Below are positions 1,641 to 32,803 of a stretch of DNA of 32,803 bases, in pieces; positions within the stretch are counted from its first letter, which is position 1; each line of letters starts with the position of its first letter. Both the position numbers and the translations under genes were made by a program. The DNA comes from Lachnospiraceae bacterium (GTDB taxonomy: Bacteria > Bacillota > Clostridia > Lachnospirales > Lachnospiraceae): positions 1 through 32,803 of the forward strand of contig JAGHER010000080.1 in NCBI GenBank assembly GCA_017889125.1. The letters run 5' to 3'. The notes beneath the pieces are model-generated. The model was not told where the DNA came from. It saw nothing but the letters and a program-made list of their open reading frames with translations, and did no database searches.

Positions 1641-2459
1641 ATGAAAAACGTAAAAAATATCGCAGTACATATTTGTCTCTTTGCGCTTGCGCTTATCTGG
1701 ATCTTCCCGGTAATCTGGCTGATCCTCAGCTCCTTCAAGGACGGCTCGGAGCTTTTCACCTATCCGCTGACCATCCTTCCAGAGCATTTTACCCTGGCAA
1801 ACTATGCTACTGCCTGGGAACAGTTCGACCTGATGCTTTATACCGGAAATACCGCATTTATCACCATCGTGGCTACGGTCATCACCGTAATTATGAGCAG
1901 CATGTGCGGCTACGCCCTGGCAAAATACAGCTACCGCTGGCTTAACCTGCTGTTTCTGTGCCTGCTGGCCACCACCATGCTTCCCACCGAGGTTATCATG
2001 AGTCCCAGCTTTACGGTGTTAAATGCTCTGGGCCTGTACAACAGCCTCTGGGGATGTATTATTCCTACGGTAGGTACCATGACCGGCGTATTCCTGATGC
2101 GGCAGTTCTTCATGTCCGTGCCCAACGAGCTGATGGAATCGGCCAGAATCGACGGCGCCACCGAGGGACAGATTTTTACCCGGATCATGTTCCCCATCTG
2201 TCGGCCGCAGATTGCCATCCTGGCTATCTTCAGCTTCCAGTGGAGATGGAACGATTACATCTGGCCGCTGCTTGCCTTAAGTGATCCCAAGAAGTACACC
2301 CTGCAGCTGGCGCTGCGCACCCTGTCCGGCGCCGAGGCAGTAAACTGGACGGTACTGCTGTCCACAGCGGTGCTGACCATGATTCCGATTTTGATTGTAT
2401 TTATTATTTTCAACAAGCAGATTATGAATGCAAACATGTCGTCCGGCGTTAAGGGCTGA
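1641..2459 (+). CDS. ABC sugar transporter permease, LacG/UgpE (CUT1) type
   Basis: This 272-residue permease pairs with the one encoded just upstream. I place the start at the ATG at 1641 (MKNVKNIAVHICLFALALIW) because an AAGGAGGGG site lies 8-10 bases before it; an upstream in-frame start would run into the previous gene. Six helices are predicted. The EAA loop reads ESARIDGATEGQIFTRIMFP, typical of the second permease of CUT1 systems. The protein ends with the usual short tail after a final helix (IPILIVFIIFNKQIM). Confidence 0.93.
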   Translation: MKNVKNIAVHICLFALALIWIFPVIWLILSSFKDGSELFTYPLTILPEHFTLANYATAWEQFDLMLYTGNTAFITIVATVITVIMSSMCGYALAKYSYRWLNLLFLCLLATTMLPTEVIMSPSFTVLNALGLYNSLWGCIIPTVGTMTGVFLMRQFFMSVPNELMESARIDGATEGQIFTRIMFPICRPQIAILAIFSFQWRWNDYIWPLLALSDPKKYTLQLALRTLSGAEAVNWTVLLSTAVLTMIPILIVFIIFNKQIMNANMSSGVKG

Positions 2460-2499
2460 TGTGGAGAACATTCATCAAAAATAAAGGAGGAAAAGAAAA

Positions 2500-3798
2500 A
2501 TGAAAAAAGAGGCTTATGGAAAAAAATGGAAAATGATGCTGGGAACAGCAGCAGTTGCAGCTATGGGAATGGCGGCACTGACCGGCTGCAGCGGCGGCAG
2601 CAGCTCTTCTTCCGGCGGCGGTGACGGGGAAACCGTAGAGCTGGAGATCCTGCTGGCAGATGACACCCTGGAGGGCGGCGCCATGCAGGCAGTTGTGGAG
2701 AAGTTCAACGAGGAGCATGCCGATCAGGGCGTGCAGGCCTTCGTCAATGAGATTGCTTACGCCGACATGGAGACCCAGATCAAGAACCGTGCACAGGCAG
2801 GAAACCTTCCGGCGCTCTGCAAGATGTCCAATTTCGACACCTACGCAGACTATGTTCTTCCGCTGGATGACACTTCCCTGGATCCGAACAATTTTAACCG
2901 CAATGGCGTGAGAGACGGAAAGCTGATGGGTACCGATATCAACGATACTGCCGTAGGTCTGATTATCAATAAGACCGCTTTTGACAATGCAGGCGTTTCC
3001 TATCCCACCACCGAGGAAGAGCGCTGGACCTGGGATGAGTTTGTGGAGGCCGTAAAAGAGGTTGACGAGAAGAATGAGCAGATCACCACGCCTTTCGTCA
3101 TCGACCACTCCCAGCAGCGTTCCGGATGCATCCTGTACCAGTTCGGCATGCAGTATTTTGATCCGGAAGATTCCAGCCACATTGTATTCCGCAGCGAGGA
3201 CACCAAGGCTGGCATCAACTTCTTCCTGGATATGTTCAAGGACGGCGGCATTTCCAAGCCTTCCATCGGAACCGGCGCAGAGAATGCACAGGACGTATTT
3301 AAGACCGGTACGGTAGCTGCCCACCTGGCAGGTAACTGGGTAATCACCGACTATACCGAAAACATCAAAGACTTTGAGTGGACTCCCGTTCTGATGCCTT
3401 ACGCAAAGGAAAAGTCCACATCCTTAGGCGGCAACTGGTTCTATGCTTTTGACGGCAGCGGCGTAGAGGAGCAGGCAAAGGACTTCCTGGAGTGGTTCTA
3501 CGAGCCGGAGAATTACAAGCTGTACTGCGAGACCGGAAACTATCTGCCCGGAACCAAGGATGTAGAAGTTACCTATGATATCCCCGGACTGGATATCTTC
3601 AACATGGAGATTGCCGCCAGCTGGGATCAGCCAAACTACGATACCTCCGTTACCGAGCAGGAGCACAGCGGCGAAAGCGCAGGCAATGCCCTTCGTGATG
3701 CTTTAGACCGTGCAATCGCCGGTGAGCTGGATGCAGACGGCGTTATGGATTACGTAGTGAAGCAGCATTTAGACAACCTGACCGGACTTCACGAATAA
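2500..3798 (+). CDS. Extracellular sugar-binding lipoprotein (family 1 SBP)
   Basis: The 432-residue product is the solute-binding component of the importer, anchored outside the membrane by a lipid. The signal peptide ends in a lipobox, LTGC, with the modified cysteine at residue 30, followed by a Gly/Ser linker (SGGSSSSSGGG). The mature part has the family 1 layout: an early hydrophobic strand (VELEILLADDT), a DEFVEAVKEV-type helix and an aromatic-rich C-terminal half (GGNWFYAFDGSG, FLEWFYEPENYKLY). The AAGGAGG site at 2484-2490 is strong. A terminator-like hairpin just after the gene would raise its transcript level over the enzymes. The ligand is inferred from neighbours to be an oligosaccharide from pectin. 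Confidence 0.93.
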   Translation: MKKEAYGKKWKMMLGTAAVAAMGMAALTGCSGGSSSSSGGGDGETVELEILLADDTLEGGAMQAVVEKFNEEHADQGVQAFVNEIAYADMETQIKNRAQAGNLPALCKMSNFDTYADYVLPLDDTSLDPNNFNRNGVRDGKLMGTDINDTAVGLIINKTAFDNAGVSYPTTEEERWTWDEFVEAVKEVDEKNEQITTPFVIDHSQQRSGCILYQFGMQYFDPEDSSHIVFRSEDTKAGINFFLDMFKDGGISKPSIGTGAENAQDVFKTGTVAAHLAGNWVITDYTENIKDFEWTPVLMPYAKEKSTSLGGNWFYAFDGSGVEEQAKDFLEWFYEPENYKLYCETGNYLPGTKDVEVTYDIPGLDIFNMEIAASWDQPNYDTSVTEQEHSGESAGNALRDALDRAIAGELDADGVMDYVVKQHLDNLTGLHE

Positions 3799-3857
3799 AA
3801 CCGGACATTTACCGGCAGGGATGGGTTTTACCAAAAAGGAATATTGACGGATGAACA

Positions 3858-3924
3858 GGGGGCGTGGCAGAAGGCTTTCACTCGGTTTCCATACCGGGCC
3901 GTAAGCTTCGCCATGCCCCCTTTT
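3858..3924 (+). terminator. Intra-operon terminator or attenuator hairpin
   Basis: The arms GGGGGCGTGGC (3858-3868) and GCCATGCCCCC (3910-3920) pair over 11 bp with one G-U, and TTTT follows at once. The stem continues inward through GAA/TTC and GCTT/AAGC with single-base bulges, and a small inner hairpin can form. It lies between the binding-protein gene and the enzyme genes. It is likely a leaky terminator that keeps the binding protein more abundant than the enzymes, or a processing or stability element. Confidence 0.65.
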
Positions 3925-3962
3925 GCACCAGAAAAACGGGAATGAAAAGAGGAAAAACGGAA

Positions 3963-6449
3963 ATGGAACTGACATATGCGATCGGAAAGGGAGAGACCAT
4001 AAGCCGCTGGAATCTGACGCCTATGGGACGGGAGCCCTTCCGGTCACCGAAAATGGCCTTTGATGCGCCGGTAAATATGGAGGAATCTTACGTGCAGGTG
4101 GTCTATCCGGTGCGTGAGGCTTTCTGGAAGGAGGAGCGCATCAAAAAGGCTGCCCTCTATAAAGGGGAATACCCGCTTTTGTATTTTCCCTTTGAAAATA
4201 ACCGCGTGGATCTGTCCACCTTTATTCACACGCCCCATTATCTTTATGTCCATGCCAGAGCTGGACTGCGGACAGAGCGGGAGGGGCTTTATCCCTTCCA
4301 GGTGTGCACCTGCGGCGGAATAAAGATCTGGGTAAACGGAGAAGAGCTGGCAGTTTTCGCTCCCTACACCCGCAATATCCCGGCCAGCACGCAGATTGCG
4401 CTGCCTCTTAAGGAAGGGGATAATGAGATTCAGGTGTATGCCGATGAGCTGGCGGAGCGGGATGTGTTCTTTTACTTTGAGCTTCGCTATGAGGGGGGTG
4501 AGCCCCTTTGGGGAAAGGCGGAGACGAAGGAGGATCCAGAAGAAATCCTTCAGGCAGAGGCATTTTTAAAAAGCTGCTATTTTGAGCAGGATATGTATAC
4601 GGAGGGACAGGTAAAGCTTTTCTATGACCCGTTGCTGCTTGCAGAGGATGTGCCGGTGTGGATCACCATGCGGCCCTTCGGCACCGGCATGGAGATTGGC
4701 GATGCAGAATATGTGGAGCGAAAGGCGGAGAAAGGCCGGAATTTCCTTGTGGCGGCAGAGGTAAAGGACAGTCCCATCCGCATATCCCGGGTGTCTGTAT
4801 GCCGGAAGGTGGGGGAGTATGTTATTCCCCGGAACCTTTTTGTGGGAATCATCCCCAGGGAGAAGATCTGTCTTACGCCGGCCGGTTCCATAGCCGGGCG
4901 GAAGCGCCAGGCCCTTCAGTTTCTTGCAGAGCATGGGGAGCCGGGATTTCCCAAGGTAATCAGCGTGCTGGAGCTTTCCGGCAGCTTTAACGAGGCGGCG
5001 GAGGAAAGCTTTGCCATGGCCTGCAGAAAGATTGAGGCCCATGAGGATTGTGCTGATTTCAGCCTGACGCCTTTTGTGCTGTTAAAGACCCGCTACAGCC
5101 ATCTGCTTTCGCCGGAGAAGGAAAAGCGGATTCGGGATATGGTGGTGAATTTCCGCTATTGGATTGACGAGCCGGGAGACGACGTGATGTGGTATTTCAG
5201 CGAGAACCACGCCTTTCTGTTTCACTGCTGTCAGTATTTGTGGGGATTTTTGTACCCGGATGAAGCGTTTTCGGCCAGCGGGTGCAGCGGAAGAGAGCAG
5301 TATGCCATAGGAAAAACGCGGGTGGAGCAGTGGTTTGACGCCTTTTTTGCTTACGGTTTTGCCGAGTGGAACTCTGCCACCTACATTCCCATTGACCTGA
5401 TTGGCTTCTTCACCCTGTATCTTGCTGCACCGGATGATTCCATAAAAGACATGGCGCGGCGGGCATTGGATGAGACCATGAAGCTGATTGCCTGGAATTC
5501 TTTCCAGGGGGTGATGAATACCACCTACGGCAGGACCTACGAGGAGAACATCAAGACCCGCATCCAGACGGAACCGAATTTCATCAGCTGGATTTCCAGC
5601 GGCGAAGGGTATGTAACCTTCTTTGGCAATGCCTCCTGCCTTTACGCGGTCAGCGATTATGAGCCGGAGGACTACGGGGCAGTCTGCAGGCTGGAAGAAG
5701 GGGAGGGGGCATCTCTGTCCTACTGCCAGGGCATGGGCCAGGTATCCATCGACGTATACCGCACCAGCCAGTATCTGACGGCAGGCCTTCAGGCCTTTAA
5801 GCCATTTTGCCACGGCCATCAGCAGCATCTGATGAATGTGGTCATCGGAAAGGAAAAGCCTGCGGTTTTCTACGTGAATCACCCGGGCGAGCGGCTGTTC
5901 AGTGGGGAGAACCGGCCCAGCTACTGGGCGGGAAACGGCACGATCCCCTGGATGTGGCGGTACAAAAATGTGACGGTAATGCTGTTTGACACGGATCCCC
6001 AAGAGCTGGTTCACTGGATTCACGCTTACGCGCCTCTTTATGAGTATGAGGAGTATCAGATCGACGGACAGTGGTTTTTTGCCCGGTCCGGCGACGGCTA
6101 TCTTGGTTGCTGGTTTTCCAATCACTACCAGCTTACCGGCCAGGGAGCCAATACCGGCAAGGAGCTGGTGAGCCAGGGCCTTTCCCATGGAGTGATGGTA
6201 AAATGCGGTTCCAGAGCAGAGTTTGGAAGCTTTGGGGCATTCTGCAGGGCCATGAAGGAGATGGAGATTTCCTGGTCGAGAGAAGAGGGCATTCATCTGG
6301 AGGACTGTCAGTACGGTGCCATATATGCCAGCCGGGAAAGGGGATTTCTGGTTAATGGGATCCTCCAGGAAAAGGAGACGAAAAAAGACCTGGTTCTTGC
6401 GAAAGAAAAACAGATAATTTATAATTTTAAAGGAGAAGCAAATGTATAA
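3963..6449 (+). CDS. Large uncharacterised protein, possible (alpha/alpha)-toroid polysaccharide-active enzyme
   Basis: I do not recognise the family with certainty. The start at 3963 (MELTYAIGKGETISRWNL) is chosen for an AGAGG site about 11 bases upstream; 3942 is an alternative. The 828-residue product has no signal peptide, so it should be cytoplasmic. Residues ~1-270 look beta-rich. Residues ~290-600 look helical and contain W-Y-F-S-E414-N415-H416 and Y-G-R524-T-Y526. Residues ~600-828 look beta-rich again (VNHPGERLFSGENRPSYWAG near 640-660). Helical toroid followed by beta-sandwich, with an Asn-His pair and a Tyr/Arg cluster, is the architecture of heparinase-like lyases and some hydrolases. 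With GH28 and GH105 next door it probably acts on a pectin oligosaccharide. A glycoside hydrolase is equally possible. Its end overlaps the GH28 gene by 8 bases, implying coupled translation. Confidence 0.6.
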   Translation: MELTYAIGKGETISRWNLTPMGREPFRSPKMAFDAPVNMEESYVQVVYPVREAFWKEERIKKAALYKGEYPLLYFPFENNRVDLSTFIHTPHYLYVHARAGLRTEREGLYPFQVCTCGGIKIWVNGEELAVFAPYTRNIPASTQIALPLKEGDNEIQVYADELAERDVFFYFELRYEGGEPLWGKAETKEDPEEILQAEAFLKSCYFEQDMYTEGQVKLFYDPLLLAEDVPVWITMRPFGTGMEIGDAEYVERKAEKGRNFLVAAEVKDSPIRISRVSVCRKVGEYVIPRNLFVGIIPREKICLTPAGSIAGRKRQALQFLAEHGEPGFPKVISVLELSGSFNEAAEESFAMACRKIEAHEDCADFSLTPFVLLKTRYSHLLSPEKEKRIRDMVVNFRYWIDEPGDDVMWYFSENHAFLFHCCQYLWGFLYPDEAFSASGCSGREQYAIGKTRVEQWFDAFFAYGFAEWNSATYIPIDLIGFFTLYLAAPDDSIKDMARRALDETMKLIAWNSFQGVMNTTYGRTYEENIKTRIQTEPNFISWISSGEGYVTFFGNASCLYAVSDYEPEDYGAVCRLEEGEGASLSYCQGMGQVSIDVYRTSQYLTAGLQAFKPFCHGHQQHLMNVVIGKEKPAVFYVNHPGERLFSGENRPSYWAGNGTIPWMWRYKNVTVMLFDTDPQELVHWIHAYAPLYEYEEYQIDGQWFFARSGDGYLGCWFSNHYQLTGQGANTGKELVSQGLSHGVMVKCGSRAEFGSFGAFCRAMKEMEISWSREEGIHLEDCQYGAIYASRERGFLVNGILQEKETKKDLVLAKEKQIIYNFKGEANV

Positions 6450-28096: not shown

Positions 28097-28109
28097 ATTG
28101 ATAAAGAAA

Positions 28110-28132
28110 TATATTATACAAAATATAATATA
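28110..28132 (+). promoter_or_regulatory. Second candidate PadR operator
   Basis: TATATTATA (28110-28118) and TATAATATA (28124-28132) are a perfect 9-bp inverted repeat with a five-base spacer, just downstream of the expected transcription start. The pair of palindromes on both sides of the start suits autoregulation by a PadR dimer. Confidence 0.55.
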
Positions 28133-28205
28133 GAGAGTCAAATAATATTGCTCTAAGGCAAAGATGCTAAGGGCAAAAGGCGTTTTGGAAAGAAGAGGTG
28201 AGGAT

Positions 28206-28526
28206 ATGGTCTTTAACACGGGAGCAGCCCTTTTGGATGCGGTGGTTCTGGCGATTGTGTCCAGAGACGCGGAGGGGACTTACGGGTATCGAATTACCCA
28301 GGATGTGCGGGCTGTGATTGAGATTTCCGAGTCCACACTGTATCCGGTGCTGCGGAGGCTGCAGAAGGATGAATGTCTGGAGGTTTACGATCAGGCCATA
28401 GACGGAAGGAACCGGCGCTACTATAAGATCACCGAGCGCGGCAGAGTGCAGCTGAATCTGTACCGCAGCGAATGGGGAAATTATTCACGGAAGATATCCC
28501 GAATTTTCGAGGAGGCCAGGGTATGA
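28206..28526 (+). CDS. PadR-family transcriptional regulator
   Basis: The 106-residue protein begins MVFNTGAALLDAVVLAIVS. It is a short PadR: a winged helix whose core is G-T-Y-G-Y-R-I-T-Q-D, then S-E-S-T-L-Y-P-V-L-R-R-L-Q-K, and a wing containing D-G-R-N-R-R-Y-Y-K-I-T-E-R-G. These are diagnostic for the family. The ATG at 28206 follows GAGGTGAGG; an upstream in-frame start would add 14 residues but lacks a site. It ends in an ATGA overlap with the DUF1700 gene. Members of this layout repress their own operon and let go under envelope stress or antimicrobial signals. The inducer is unknown here. Confidence 0.93.
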   Translation: MVFNTGAALLDAVVLAIVSRDAEGTYGYRITQDVRAVIEISESTLYPVLRRLQKDECLEVYDQAIDGRNRRYYKITERGRVQLNLYRSEWGNYSRKISRIFEEARV

Positions 28527-29533
28527 GAAAAGAGGAATTTATGAGAGAGCTGGAATATCTTCTGCAGGATATTCCAGATGAGGAAAAGGAGGATGCCGTG
28601 GCCTACTACCGGGACTACTTAGAGGAGGCAGGCCCGGAGAATGAGGAGGCGGTAATCCGGGATTTTGGAAGCCCGGAGCGGATTGCGGCGATGATCCGGT
28701 GTGATATCAATGGGACGCTGGAGGAAGGCGGAAGCTTCACTGATCAGGGATATGAGGATGAGCGGTTCAGAGATCCTAATTATCAGATTGTAAAGCGGAT
28801 GGATCTGCCGGAGGAGAATGGCGGAAATGCTGCTGGCGGTCAGGCTGGTACTGGCGGAGTCTATGGCAGCGAAGGGGAAAATGGCGGCGGCTGGAGCCAG
28901 CAGCAGAGCGGTTCGGGAAGGGGCCATGGCAGCAGTGGATATGGAAGCGGCTATGGAGCCAGCCGTGGCACCAATGGAAACTCCAGCGGGTATCGCGGCA
29001 CCAATGGAAACTCTAGTAGGAGCAGCAGCGGAAATGGCCAGGGCAGCAATTATGGCGGCGGCTACAGCAGCGGCTACGGCACAGGCTGGACCAATACTGC
29101 TGGTTCTGCTGCCCAGGGAAATCAGGGAAAACCTGCAGGCCGCAAATGGGAGTGGTGGCAGATTGCCGGTATTGCGATTTTAATCTGCCTGGCAGCGCCC
29201 ATGGCGCTTACTGCGGCCCTGGGAATCGGAGGCGGTCTTGTGGGAATTCTGGCGGCCCTTCTGGGGGTGCTGGCGGCAGTGACCATTGCTCTGGCGGCCT
29301 GTGTCTTTGCGCTGATTTTAATGGGAATTGCGTTTATCGGCGTGGGGATCGCCCATATGACCGTTCCTCTTCAGGGATTTATGTTCCTGGGGGCGGGGAT
29401 TGGCGTCCTGGGCCTGGGAATCCTTGGCCTGTCCCTCTGCGGGCTTTATTACGGCCGGTTTCTGCCCTGGCTTTGCCGCAGTGTGGTAAACAGCATCAGC
29501 AAGGCGCTGCATAGAGGAGGGAAGAAGGCATGA
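28523..29533 (+). CDS. DUF1700 (HAAS) membrane protein with long Gly/Ser/Asn linker
   Basis: The 336-residue protein has an N-terminal HAAS domain at about 1-75 (MRKEEFMRELEYLLQDIPDE, then YYRDYLEEAG and RDFGSPERIAAMI). A Gly/Ser/Asn/Tyr-rich segment follows at about 95-205, with a 10-residue repeat containing G-T-N-G-N-S-S twice. From 209 on there are four hydrophobic, glycine-rich helices. HAAS proteins pair with PadR regulators and are thought to pass an envelope state to them. The linker is much longer than usual and is coded by near-identical DNA repeats (17 identical bases at 28967 and 28997). The start overlaps the padR stop. Confidence 0.88.
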   Translation: MRKEEFMRELEYLLQDIPDEEKEDAVAYYRDYLEEAGPENEEAVIRDFGSPERIAAMIRCDINGTLEEGGSFTDQGYEDERFRDPNYQIVKRMDLPEENGGNAAGGQAGTGGVYGSEGENGGGWSQQQSGSGRGHGSSGYGSGYGASRGTNGNSSGYRGTNGNSSRSSSGNGQGSNYGGGYSSGYGTGWTNTAGSAAQGNQGKPAGRKWEWWQIAGIAILICLAAPMALTAALGIGGGLVGILAALLGVLAAVTIALAACVFALILMGIAFIGVGIAHMTVPLQGFMFLGAGIGVLGLGILGLSLCGLYYGRFLPWLCRSVVNSISKALHRGGKKA

Positions 29534-30366
29534 AGCATTTTGTACGGAATACCGCAGCTTTAGGAGCGGTTCTCACCATTGTCGGCTTTGGCATGGCTAT
29601 GGGCGCCCAGGCCATGGGCGGAAGATGGGACAATTCATGGTACTGGAAGAAGCCTGTGTTTCTGGGCGTGAGTTGGGGTGAAGATTGGGATTCCATACCG
29701 GCAGATGCTTACCAGGGTGAGGCGGAAGGTGCGGATACGGTGAGCTTTTCCGATGTGGAGGATGTGAAAATTTCCCTGGGAGCAGGTGAGATTATCTGGA
29801 AAACTGGAGAGGGGGATTCCATCCTGGTTAAGGTGGATGGCCGGGCAGAACTGCCGAACCGGTGCCAGGTTTATGAAGAGGATAAAGAACTGGTAATCCG
29901 GCTGAAGGGCCGGAATAACCGGGGCGTTAAGGCAGAGATTACAGTGCCTGAGGGAAGCCGGTTTTCGGATGTGGAGATTGAAGTGGGGGCAGGTACCATC
30001 CAGGCGGCGGAGCTGCTCTGCGGCAGTCTGGATGTGGAACTGGCGGCCGGAAGCGCGGAATTTTTCCAGTGCGAGGCAGAGGAGAGCACATTTTCCTGTG
30101 CCGCAGGAGAGATCCGCTATCAGGGAAAACTTGCCGGAGGCACAGAGGCTAACTGTGCCGCAGGATCCATCGAATTTATCCTGGATCAGAAAAAAGAGGA
30201 TTTTAACTATGAAATTGACGCTGCCGGTGGTATGATTGAAATTGGCGGAGTGGAATATTCCGGCATTGCCGCAAGAGATACGGTGAGCAGCGGTGCTCCC
30301 TATTCGCTGGATCTGAGCACGGCAGCCGGAAGTATTCAGGTAGAATTTTTAGGAGGTGACCTGTGA
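29530..30366 (+). CDS. DUF4097 beta-helix envelope protein
   Basis: The 278-residue protein has one N-terminal helix (about 8-28) and then a repetitive beta-rich domain. Strands V-K-I-S-L-G-A-G-E-I, V-E-I-E-V-G-A-G-T-I, V-E-L-A-A-G-S-A-E-F and S-C-A-A-G-E-I succeed one another, each with G/A-A-G at the turn. This is the DUF4097 pattern found beside PadR/DUF1700 genes. The start overlaps the previous stop (ATGA) and its stop overlaps the pspC ATG (TGATG). The function is not settled; a surface sensor or adhesin-like scaffold is possible. Confidence 0.88.
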   Translation: MKHFVRNTAALGAVLTIVGFGMAMGAQAMGGRWDNSWYWKKPVFLGVSWGEDWDSIPADAYQGEAEGADTVSFSDVEDVKISLGAGEIIWKTGEGDSILVKVDGRAELPNRCQVYEEDKELVIRLKGRNNRGVKAEITVPEGSRFSDVEIEVGAGTIQAAELLCGSLDVELAAGSAEFFQCEAEESTFSCAAGEIRYQGKLAGGTEANCAAGSIEFILDQKKEDFNYEIDAAGGMIEIGGVEYSGIAARDTVSSGAPYSLDLSTAAGSIQVEFLGGDL

Positions 30367-30563
30367 TGAATGGAAAAAAGCTGTACCGTTCCAACCGGGA
30401 TAAGATGCTCTTAGGCGTGTGCGGAGGAATGGGTGAATATTTTGAGGTGGACCCGACGCTGATCCGTCTGGGTGTGGCTCTGTTGACCATGTTCAGCTGC
30501 GGAACTATGCTTTTGGCCTACTTTATTGCGGCGATTATTATTCCCCAGGACCCGGTGCTGTAG
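30366..30563 (+). CDS. PspC-domain membrane protein
   Basis: The 65-residue protein is a minimal PspC domain: K-L-Y-R-S-N-R-D-K-M-L-L-G-V-C-G-G-M-G-E-Y-F, then D-P-T-L-I-R-L and one to two hydrophobic helices ending in I-I-I-P-Q-D-P. AGGAGGTG lies 7 bases before the ATG at 30366; a GTG three bases earlier is in frame. PspC proteins act in envelope stress responses. It closes the four-gene operon. Confidence 0.92.
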   Translation: MNGKKLYRSNRDKMLLGVCGGMGEYFEVDPTLIRLGVALLTMFSCGTMLLAYFIAAIIIPQDPVL

Positions 30564-30580
30564 GAATGCTGCTGAGACGC

Positions 30581-30632
30581 CTGGGATTTAGGATGCCTTG
30601 TATTGGGAAGCCTCGGGTTTAGGATGCCTTGT
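30581..30632 (+). repeat. Two tandem copies of a 31-bp unit
   Basis: TTTAGGATGCCTTGT occurs at 30587-30601 and at 30618-30632, and the similarity reaches back six bases with two changes, giving a 31-base period. It lies just after the pspC stop and has no evident coding role. Confidence 0.6.
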
Positions 30633-30700
30633 GCGGAGATATCTTAAAGAAGGCGGAAAAGCAGGCCTGGGGTATAAGGGGCAGAAAAAGGGGCACACTC

Positions 30701-30734
30701 TTAAGGAAAGCGGATTAAATCACCGTTTCCTTAA
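30701..30734. repeat. REP-like intergenic palindrome, copy C
   Basis: TTAAGGAAA (30701-30709), a one-base bulge, and CGG (30711-30713) pair with CCGTTTCCTTAA (30723-30734) around ATTAAATCA. It is the longest stem of the family in this window and lies between pspC and the spore-protein gene. Confidence 0.65.
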
Positions 30735-30781
30735 TCGATGATGATCTGACGGGATTTTGCAAAAAGGAGTGTGCGAGAGTA

Positions 30782-31006
30782 ATGCCGAAAAGTAAGAAGA
30801 AGGAAAAGGATTCCTTCGACCCTACAAATATGAAGCCGGAAGAGGTTTTGAAGTTTGAGATTGCCTCGGAGCTGGGGCTGGCGGATAAAGTGATAAACGG
30901 AGGCTGGCGGAGCCTGACGGCCAAGGAGAGCGGAAGGATCGGCGGGCTGATTACCAAGAGGAAGAAGGAATTGAAGAAAGAAGCTTTCAGGATGGAAGGA
31001 CAGTGA
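30782..31006 (+). CDS. Alpha/beta-type small acid-soluble spore protein
   Basis: The 74-residue basic protein carries the SASP core: V-L-K-F-E-I-A-S-E-L-G-L, which includes the germination-protease site (cut after Glu before Ile-Ala-Ser-Glu), then G-W-R-S-L-T-A-K-E-S-G-R-I-G-G-L-I-T-K-R. These proteins coat spore DNA and feed germination. A Lys-rich start (MPKSKKKEKDSF) differs from the Bacillus forms but agrees with the Clostridia variants I know. AAAGGAG is 12 bases from the ATG, slightly far. No clear sigma-G promoter was found. A strong terminator follows. Confidence 0.88.
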   Translation: MPKSKKKEKDSFDPTNMKPEEVLKFEIASELGLADKVINGGWRSLTAKESGRIGGLITKRKKELKKEAFRMEGQ

Positions 31007-31027
31007 CCGTTCCTTTATTCTGGCGGG

Positions 31028-31080
31028 AAAAGACGGGAAGGCGGCAGGCTTTACAGCAGGCGCGCATGTCCCGTCTTTTT
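31028..31080. terminator. Terminator after the spore-protein gene
   Basis: AAAAGACGGGA (31028-31038) and TCCCGTCTTTT (31069-31079) pair perfectly and a T run follows, giving a long intrinsic terminator. The A-rich left arm could serve the opposite strand, where the chimeric gene ends at 31142. Confidence 0.7.
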
Positions 31081-31141
31081 CTATAGGTTTCCTTTTTTTA
31101 TGGATTCCGCTGCAAACCCGTGGATGTTCGCAGGAGGGAGT

Positions 31142-31897
31142 TTACTTCGGCACAGCCATAAAGGGATATACCGGCCCTCTTAATTCAAATTCGTAGGTAT
31201 CCCGGTTTACTTTCCCTACAATAGAATCGCTGTCATACAGCTCCATAAGGAATCCGGCCATTTGCCGGGCAGTGTGGTATTTGGGGATGTTCGTCTGATA
31301 ATCAAATTCATTTATGCCCAGGTAATGCAGCTTAAACTCCGTTTCGGTTTCTGCGGGGGCGAGGACCTTTGCCCGAAGCTTTGCGCCGCTTCGGATCAGC
31401 TCCTGGGCTAATCCTTCGGTAAATGCATTGACAAAAAACTTTGTGGAGGTATAGATTACGCCGCGTTCCCCGATAAAATACCCTCCGATAGAGGAAACAT
31501 TGATAATCTGCGCCCCCTCTGTCATCAGATGGTCTTTGGCAAAAAGCGTAGATAAAATGGCCAGGGCTTCCATGTTTACCCGTATCAGGTCGGCGCACTG
31601 TGACCGGGGAAGTTCCCTGGGGATGGCAAGCACGAACCGCCGGGCAAGCTGGGAGTTCCATTGTTTCTCTGCGGCCTCGGCGGCGTTCCATAAGGTGTTG
31701 CGGTCGGCGTACTCCGGCGGGGCGTGAGGGGGAAGCAGGATTTCGGTATGGACGATTTCGCTTTTATGGGAGTAGTATTTCTGCTTCTGGTCGTATTGGG
31801 AAAACAGCCGTTCCCCGCTCTGATAGGCGGCGGACGCAACGGCTGACTGGCGTTTGCTTCGTTGGATAATCTTCACGTCAAAATGCGGGCATGGCAA
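31142..31897 (-). CDS. Chimeric ORF: MobA/MobL relaxase N-terminus fused to short-chain dehydrogenase C-terminus
   Basis: The 251-residue frame joins two unrelated proteins. Residues 1-~105 match the start of MobA/MobL (MOBQ) relaxases: R-S-K-R-Q-S-A-V-A-S-A-A-Y25, where Tyr25 aligns with the nicking tyrosine of IncQ MobA, then Y-Y-S-H-K-S-E-I-V-H-T-E-I. The metal-binding H-x-H segment that should come next is missing. From ~107 on it is a short-chain dehydrogenase: V-N-M-E-A-L, I-I-N-V-S-S-I-G-G, then catalytic Y149-T-S-T-K153. The Rossmann T-G-x-x-x-G-x-G that binds NAD(P) is missing. A TTG start follows AAAGGAGG. Neither half should be active alone in its usual role; the protein may be a dead fusion. 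The junction lies near 31577-31605. Confidence 0.75.
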   Translation of the reverse strand: MPCPHFDVKIIQRSKRQSAVASAAYQSGERLFSQYDQKQKYYSHKSEIVHTEILLPPHAPPEYADRNTLWNAAEAAEKQWNSQLARRFVLAIPRELPRSQCADLIRVNMEALAILSTLFAKDHLMTEGAQIINVSSIGGYFIGERGVIYTSTKFFVNAFTEGLAQELIRSGAKLRAKVLAPAETETEFKLHYLGINEFDYQTNIPKYHTARQMAGFLMELYDSDSIVGKVNRDTYEFELRGPVYPFMAVPK

Positions 31898-32003
31898 GAA
31901 AAAATCCTCCTTTCTCCCGGCGTCCGGGCAAAGAAAAAGCAGGGAACCTAATCAAAGATTTCCTGCTTGGTGGTGCCGCCGGTGGACGGCTGGTATTCAG
32001 TTG

Positions 32004-32029
32004 TAAAAGTTCGGGCCAACGTGGCCCGA
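32004..32029 (-). terminator. Terminator of the small AT-rich gene
   Basis: TCGGGCCA and TGGCCCGA (32011-32018 and 32022-32029) form a perfect 8-bp stem with a three-base loop. On the minus strand it is followed by ACTTTTAC. It lies about 42 bases after the stop of the gene that ends at 32071. Confidence 0.6.
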
Positions 32030-32070
32030 AGGGGGATAACGAAAAAATTCTAATTGCTAATTCCAGATAA

Positions 32071-32388
32071 TCATGGCTCCACAACTATTACAGGTTCTGC
32101 TATAAACACATATTCTTCCTTCATAATCTGGAAACTTATTTCTTTTAATTCTCGTTCGGATTTGTGAGAAAATATTAGTAATACTTGACGCGGAAAGTCA
32201 TTGTATACCTCATCGGCACTGTCACTGTATCGGTCTATAACAGCTTGCACGGCTTGTATAGGCGTATCTTTTTCAAAAGTTATAGAAATTCCATTATAAT
32301 AAGTCTTATTAGACGTTGAAATTACTGCTATGATAAGAATAAACAAAATAGCCACTCCTGCTATGCCTAATATATATTGCTTCTTCAT
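32071..32388 (-). CDS. Uncharacterised small membrane-anchored protein (AT-rich cargo)
   Basis: The 105-residue protein has one N-terminal helix (YILGIAGVAILFILIIAVIST) and then a ~80-residue domain outside the membrane (TYYNGISITFEKDTPIQAVQ and so on). I do not recognise it. It has a good AGGAGGG site on the minus strand. Its bases are much richer in A and T than the genes to its left, which points to recent transfer as cargo of the mobile element. It sits between the relaxase start and the oriT-like cluster, on the relaxase strand. Confidence 0.7.
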   Translation of the reverse strand: MKKQYILGIAGVAILFILIIAVISTSNKTYYNGISITFEKDTPIQAVQAVIDRYSDSADEVYNDFPRQVLLIFSHKSERELKEISFQIMKEEYVFIAEPVIVVEP

Positions 32389-32689
32389 TAACAGCCCTCC
32401 TAATCTAAGTTATTGTTTTTCTTATTATATCTTATTTAATAAAGAAAATATAGCTGGCTTTTCTTAAAACTTGCTGACCGAAAACAGCTTGCAGCGCAAG
32501 GTGTTTCCGGGCGGCAAGTCCACAAAGGGGTAGCTGGCGCAAGCCAGCGCAGGGGTGCAAAACGTCCAGTGGACGTTTGCCCTGCACCGACCGAAGCGGA
32601 GCGGAGACGGGGTAGCTTCTCCTGTGGGGATTTGGCGCGGATTGAAAATCGGCGGAAAATCCTTAGCCGTCTGCAAGACGCCCCCGGCA
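32389..32689. other. Non-coding hairpin-rich region before oriT
   Basis: No gene is supported here. GCTGGC-gcaa-GCCAGC (32533-32548) is a perfect tetraloop hairpin. Next, GGTGCA (32554-32559), ACGTCC (32562-32567), GGACGT (32571-32576) and TGCACC (32583-32588) build a second, nested hairpin. Such structures commonly flank the transfer origins and replication genes of mobile elements. AT-rich sequence before 32460 likely holds the promoter for the small gene. Confidence 0.5.
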
Positions 32690-32780
32690 GGGCGCAACGC
32701 ACCGGCTCGACCGGTGTATAGTTGCGCCCTATCCGAGTTCTGGGATAGGGCGCATTATCCGAGATATTCAACTATCCGAG
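32690..32780. other. Putative oriT: nested inverted repeats and iterated TATCCGAG
   Basis: GGGCGCAAC (32690-32698) pairs with GTTGCGCCC (32721-32729). Inside it, CACCGG (32700-32705) pairs with CCGGTG (32711-32716). TGCGCCCTATCC (32723-32734) pairs with GGATAGGGCGCA (32743-32754), a perfect 12-bp repeat. TATCCGAG recurs at 32730, 32756 and 32773. The stretch ACCGGTG-TATA-GTTGCGCCCT resembles the IncQ/MOBQ nick region, where an inverted repeat is followed by TAAGTGCGCCCT. The relaxase fragment nearby belongs to the same family, which supports the call. Confidence 0.6.
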
Positions 32781-32803
32781 GAAATTTTCAAATAGTGGCT
32801 ATA

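Follow-up and report, generated by a model that had tools for sequence, protein, structure and literature searches.

A relaxase–dehydrogenase reading frame as a probable deletion scar of a decaying integrative mobilizable element in a Lachnospiraceae genome

The window analysed here, by which we mean the whole stretch of 32,803 bases that makes up one complete contig (C132) of a Lachnospiraceae genome, contains an uninterrupted frame of 251 codons with a TTG start (251 aa; 31142-31897, minus strand, in the ORF list), which begins as a MOBQ relaxase and ends as a short-chain dehydrogenase (SDR). This hybrid is most likely an ordinary deletion scar, not a new working protein; in our judgement it was, with high probability, left in a decaying integrative mobilizable element (IME) by one deletion that followed insertion. 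The initial annotation had proposed that a deletion brought a mobile element and a dehydrogenase gene together, and this reading is now well supported; the flanks show the other end of the element on a second contig, C184. The features on which the argument draws are as follows.

30782-31006, plus strand: SASP gene (PF00269), a conserved neighbour on the chromosome by which the site of insertion is recognised (Pfam, genus relatives).
31142-31897, minus strand: fusion reading frame (ORF list and Pfam).
31142-31579, minus strand: 3' half of an SDR gene, Ser-Tyr-Lys kept, N-terminal nucleotide-binding part missing (Pfam, relatives).
31579-31588, minus strand: junction, with the break in the relaxase at 31579/31580 and that in the SDR uncertain within a few bases of possible microhomology (alignment to relatives).
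31580-31897, minus strand: first 106 codons of mobA, a gene for a MOBQ relaxase, with Tyr25 but no HxH (Pfam, NCBIfam, relatives).
31898-32803, minus strand: DNA of the mobile element upstream of mobA, running to the end of the contig (DNA matches to relatives).
31906-31913, minus strand: ribosome-binding sequence of the relaxase, AAAGGAGG (sequence inspection).
32071-32388, minus strand: ORF of 105 codons within the element, for which Pfam gave nothing at E 0.01 (ORF list, Pfam).
32700-32754, no strand assigned: oriT-like sequence, comprising the hairpin CACCGG-CTCGA-CCGGTG, TATAGTTGCGCCCTA and an inverted repeat.

The dual nature of the frame, first read as about 105 residues of MOBQ relaxase followed by SDR, is borne out by a MobA_MobL match over residues 17-107 (profile positions 1-91 of 224, E 2e-33) and an adh_short match over residues 95-188 (profile positions 95-186 of 195, E 3.4e-13), and judged on these profiles the two matches cannot be products of chance. 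The best NCBIfam match for the first part is MobQ (NF041496), residues 1-107 aligning with positions 1-107 of 197; at 134 bits the hybrid scores below the curated cut-off of 200 bits, and an intact relative (L004) passes at 251.8 bits, so that the MOBQ assignment is right for the parent gene. The N-terminal tyrosine region of the relaxase is present, with Tyr25, which we take to be the nicking tyrosine, lying within AAYQSGE, as is the SDR active site Ser-Tyr-x3-Lys (Ser136, Tyr149, Lys153). A motif check upheld the earlier observation that both halves lack a core element of their fold: the 251-codon frame has neither an HxH metal-binding motif, which L004 carries as NPHAHIL, nor the TGxxxGxG nucleotide-binding motif, which reads TGASSGIG in all 12 SDR relatives aligned. 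With two orientations and three frames, we estimate that roughly one in six random junctions would give a same-strand, in-frame join; an in-frame result needs no selection.

The position of the relaxase-side break is fixed by comparison with relatives. After the ...DLIR of the window, all 10 mobA relatives compared go on as DYCREFFVSKG, and all 10 read GACTA(C/T)TGC (Asp-Tyr-Cys) at the position of GTAAACATG in the window. The break thus falls after ...CTG ATA CGG (31580), the next G (31579) being shared. At the DNA level, the alignment to Candidatus Eisenbergiella merdavium, whose relaxase (L045) is 92% identical in protein to the relaxase part of the hybrid, holds 91.5% identity over 457 bases and stops at 31579; among the matches listed from 98 genomes (own included), the closest proteins over residues 1-108 are 94% (G042) and 83% identical (G007, same genus). 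On the dehydrogenase side, SDR relatives at this point read MLHLN, MIRLN, MLNLN, MLRLN or MLRVN; in the window, D-L-I-R suits the relaxase and R-V-N suits the SDR. Because relatives fit R-V-N here, a microhomology of a few bases is possible, reaching about 6 bases if the SDR gene once read (T)TA CGG GTA. The earlier suggestion that similar sequence was used at the join is therefore plausible, some relatives reading MLRVN, MLRLN or MIRLN and others MLHLN or MLNLN.

Intact close copies of mobA run to about 530 codons, of which 106 remain in the window. Shortened copies also occur elsewhere. Of the relaxase matches listed outside the own genome, 37 begin no later than residue 13 and extend to residue 81 or beyond; by our count 5 of these lie in frames of fewer than 450 codons, some of which may simply be cut off by the end of a contig. 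In three other loci compared in detail, the alignment to intact relaxase ends at residue 215 (L045), 166 (L005) or 264 (L047). In the Ca. Eisenbergiella merdavium locus (L045, 5001-6064), the relaxase cut at codon ~215 is followed by a 99-codon frame that by eye resembles the C-terminus of a serine recombinase, with no Pfam match at E 1e-4. The window's own genome carries a second, smaller relaxase remnant on contig C208 (L092, 1481-1596), in which mobA codons ~16-31 adjoin residues ~266-297, apparently through an internal deletion.

Element DNA in the window matches L045 over 31579-32035 and 32423-32730, and the match to L047 reaches 32792. Upstream of mobA lie TATAGTTGCGCCCTA (32717-32731) and a 15-nt inverted repeat (32723-32754); TATAGTTGCGCCCTA recurs exactly in L047 and L053, and the complete oriT-like hairpin sequence was found in no other locus compared. 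In sequence this region has the look of a MOBQ origin of transfer, presumably resembling the nic region of MOBQ systems. The 105-codon ORF between the two matched stretches has an N-terminal hydrophobic stretch, and L045, L046, L047 and L049 have other frames there. Elements of this type in relatives carry mobA and a CHC2 primase-like gene, and in L049 mobA, primase and a Tn916-type integrase stand in succession. At the locus itself, what was observed of an IME is a truncated relaxase, the oriT-like sequence and a right end on C184; a left end and an integrase were not seen, and an assembly gap lies between the two contigs. That the entire window derives from a plasmid or a phage was considered and rejected, as 7 plasmid and 3 phage records cover parts only, with matches spanning no more than 33% of the query at identities of up to 76% (plasmid) and 85% (phage).

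The insertion site can be located from the chromosomal neighbourhood. All 11 genus genomes, the own one among them, match the stretch 28100-31141, and in the relatives this match goes no further than about 30985. A cbiG-like frame comes directly after SASP in 8 of 10 genus relatives (called by Pfam CbiG in L083 and the own copy, by eye in the other seven), with other genes in G001 and G008. The genome's own cbiG starts at 2351 on C184, where it is fused with cbiD into one 810-codon frame (2351-4783; L094), an arrangement seen by eye also in G006, the other seven genus relatives with cbiG having separate frames. Since SASP and cbiG adjoin in 8 of 10 genus relatives, the SASP and scar side of C132 and the cbiG side of C184 are very likely the two flanks of one insertion, to judge from gene order.

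Upstream of cbiG, C184 carries a gene for a MerR regulator (1853-2230), an interrupted MATE gene at about 850-1652, and two HTH genes. Its segment 498-849 (L094) matches DNA of mobA-carrying genomes at 79-81%. Among the 12 C184 matches listed, five stop at 848/849, two break off sooner, at 772 and 641, and the remaining five are short and confined to 207-276. Past 848/849, the five matches pass into five different sequences, which identifies this point as a terminus of the element. The right terminus of the IME family, for example ...TTAGCCATGAACTG in L102 and L103, was seen at 5 places in 3 genomes (G444, G445 and G448). G444 and G445 hold 4 of these 5 copies, and because their mobA regions (L046 and L047) are near-identical, the copies are not all independent. 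In two of the five, the mobA start lies 5.84 and 5.03 kb downstream of the terminus (contigs matched by equal size); given the 906 element bases assembled on C132 and the 849 on C184, we expect some 3.3-4.1 kb of unassembled element between the contigs.

The terminus meets the MATE gene directly. Pieces of the latter, in an interrupted frame, align to residues ~1-104 and ~242-354 of relatives of 461-483 residues, and the last piece ends at the element terminus; in the three relatives whose alignment runs to the end, this corresponds to about residue 343-354. Neither the SDR nor either MerR type was found in 9 MATE loci within ~1.5 kb each side of the match (one of them, L109, yielding no MATE frame), and the idea that MATE and SDR once formed an old operon found no support in these loci within about 1.5 kb. 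By eye, the MerR of C184 differs from the type that stands beside SDR relatives; its own relatives occur in 2 of 397 family genomes, own included (E 1e-20), and in the other of the two neither MATE nor an SDR of the hybrid's type was seen by eye among the adjoining frames.

These flanks bear on whether the join is real. A chimera, in which assembly joined two unlinked sequences near the end of a metagenome-like contig, might be suspected in a genome of 266 contigs where the join lies 1.2 kb from the end of a whole-contig window, where several relatives have more than one copy of such a relaxase gene, and given that the contig of relative L051 ends at mobA codon 105. C184, however, separately places the same kind of element beside cbiG, the usual partner of SASP, and the sequence common to both sides of the join comes to only a few bases; an assembly error is for the first of these reasons unlikely on the sequences at hand, and we give the chimera little credence. 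A real join might also have arisen had the element, or its circular form, entered the SDR gene by illegitimate recombination inside mobA, with no deletion of an element end. The same join would result, and the 3' part of mobA could then sit in the unassembled gap; yet a search of the own assembly with that part (433 residues) returned only a 32-residue remnant, on C208, and a right end matching the terminus of other copies is present, which makes integration via the element's own end the simpler course. Such direct entry is accordingly rather improbable.

Under the deletion reading, the element would have inserted in the MATE gene, next to the SDR gene. A single later deletion would have run from mobA codon 107 outward, removing the 3' four fifths of mobA together with the element's left end (the primase and integrase end in relatives) and perhaps the rest of MATE, and would have ended at about SDR codon 107, taking the 5' half of that gene, possibly helped by a microhomology of a few bases. 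The relaxase start and ribosome-binding site would have survived, with the frame continuing into the SDR by chance. Of this history, the scar and the right end are observed, whereas a single deletion, and its place in this order, we infer. Against this reading it can be said that C132 and C184 are not physically joined, that none of the MATE loci compared above has the SDR close by, and that the fusion frame itself shows no decay, its mobA part having few amino-acid changes and its SDR part looking normal. The latter suggests that the deletion may be recent.

The dehydrogenase half belongs to a sparsely distributed group. In an SDR-only search (E 1e-20), relatives occur in 7 of 397 family genomes, own included, and in two named loci in genome_contigs; a further 42 were found among plasmid records (E 1e-5), the best on a Bacillus licheniformis plasmid (58%). 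Relatives of 48-58% identity come from genomes of the same family, from MAGs of Clostridium and Fusobacteriaceae, and from Bacillus, Priestia and Cytobacillus plasmids. By eye, a divergent MerR gene stands beside the intact SDR in 6 of 8 loci compared, L013, one of the other two, having only 48 bases upstream; of four plasmid loci, an annotated MerR adjoins the SDR in one (L116) and in none of the other three. Of 41 columns that do not vary in 12 relatives, 38 are unchanged in the SDR half (93%, versus 93-100% for the relatives), which by this measure looks like a normal member of its wider family. A lower count, 51 of 76 columns invariant in 8 clostridial and fusobacterial relatives (themselves 93-100%), had raised relaxed constraint as a candidate; with 4 Bacillus, Priestia and Cytobacillus relatives added, the figure becomes 38 of 41, so that the lower count reflects subfamily, not decay, and relaxed constraint was rejected. 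When the own genome was searched with an intact SDR, the missing 5' half did not turn up elsewhere: the ten matches beyond the window are all paralogues of 23-34% identity.

On the relaxase side, comparison with 5 relatives gives 9 silent and 2 replacing private codons, and pairwise dN/dS between window and relatives is 0.04-0.15. As the divergence may predate the join, we set this ratio aside as a sign of function; the pattern of private codons would reflect either selection that acted before the two genes were joined or a join of recent date.

Whether the hybrid could itself be under selection, as a small protein with a relaxase N-terminus and an SDR tail in a regulatory or interfering role, has to be weighed against its distribution. 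The open frame, its ribosome-binding sequence, the retained Tyr25 and the near-complete set of invariant SDR columns speak for such a role. The junction, however, occurs in one genome only among those searched, the core motifs are gone on both sides, the neighbouring MATE gene is broken, and the mean pLDDT is 35.8 versus 72.3 for a control, all of which make selection very unlikely. No match spanning both halves was found, except in the own genome, in the 98 genomes searched (among matches listed) or in the 11 genus genomes; a genome_contigs scan with 6 patterns, including the junction peptide DLIRVNME, gave 17 loci, none covering both halves (own genome perhaps excluded); and viral_contigs held no exact match to the 27-base junction. 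The look through related genomes proposed in the initial annotation thus brought up no second genome with the junction, nor this layout in many genomes, and on these searches a conserved fusion family is rejected.

Of the residues in the AlphaFold2 model of the hybrid, 238 of 251 fall below a pLDDT of 50. The contrast with the intact SDR control (72.3 in the best of five models, ranging 72.3, 69.9 ... 42.9) is a weak one, because that single control drew on relatives of 63-78% identity, versus 48-55% for the SDR rows of the hybrid, its models spread so widely, and a relaxase control was absent; the alignments, similarly shallow, had 17 rows for the hybrid (itself, 8 relaxase pieces and 8 SDR pieces) and 8 for the control. 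The model of the hybrid shows no confident fold. Deprived of the relaxase's metal-binding HxH and of the SDR's nucleotide-binding part, the product, if translated at all, should be inert, and nothing found suggests that the protein works or is used. That an expressed hybrid might contact oriT through its relaxase N-terminus, or block incoming intact relaxases, and so protect its host as a resident against related elements, is a conjecture to which we assign next to no probability.

As a deletion scar, the locus offers a snapshot of how a mobilizable element may decay, losing an end, cutting a neighbouring gene in half and leaving a chimeric frame that stays open. Such a frame may be labelled as SDR or relaxase by annotation pipelines; most likely it would work as neither. 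Were the hybrid expressed and kept, it would exemplify a new gene born at the deletion scar of an element, a case for which we found no evidence.

Set against known systems, the locus resembles the MOBQ relaxases of IMEs (NF041496, MobA_MobL) in its start region, its matching upstream DNA and the oriT-like repeat nearby, and differs from them in having 106 of about 530 codons, in the loss of the HxH half of the nicking domain and in its score below the cut-off. With classical SDR oxidoreductases it shares Ser-Tyr-Lys and 38 of the 41 invariant columns of the retained part, but the first ~107 residues, including TGxxxGxG, are missing, and no MerR gene stands beside it in the window. It also resembles the decayed ICEs and IMEs mentioned in the IME review PMC5704250, in that a broken mobile element has been left in the chromosome; what sets it apart is that the truncation in the window happens to yield an open chimeric frame.
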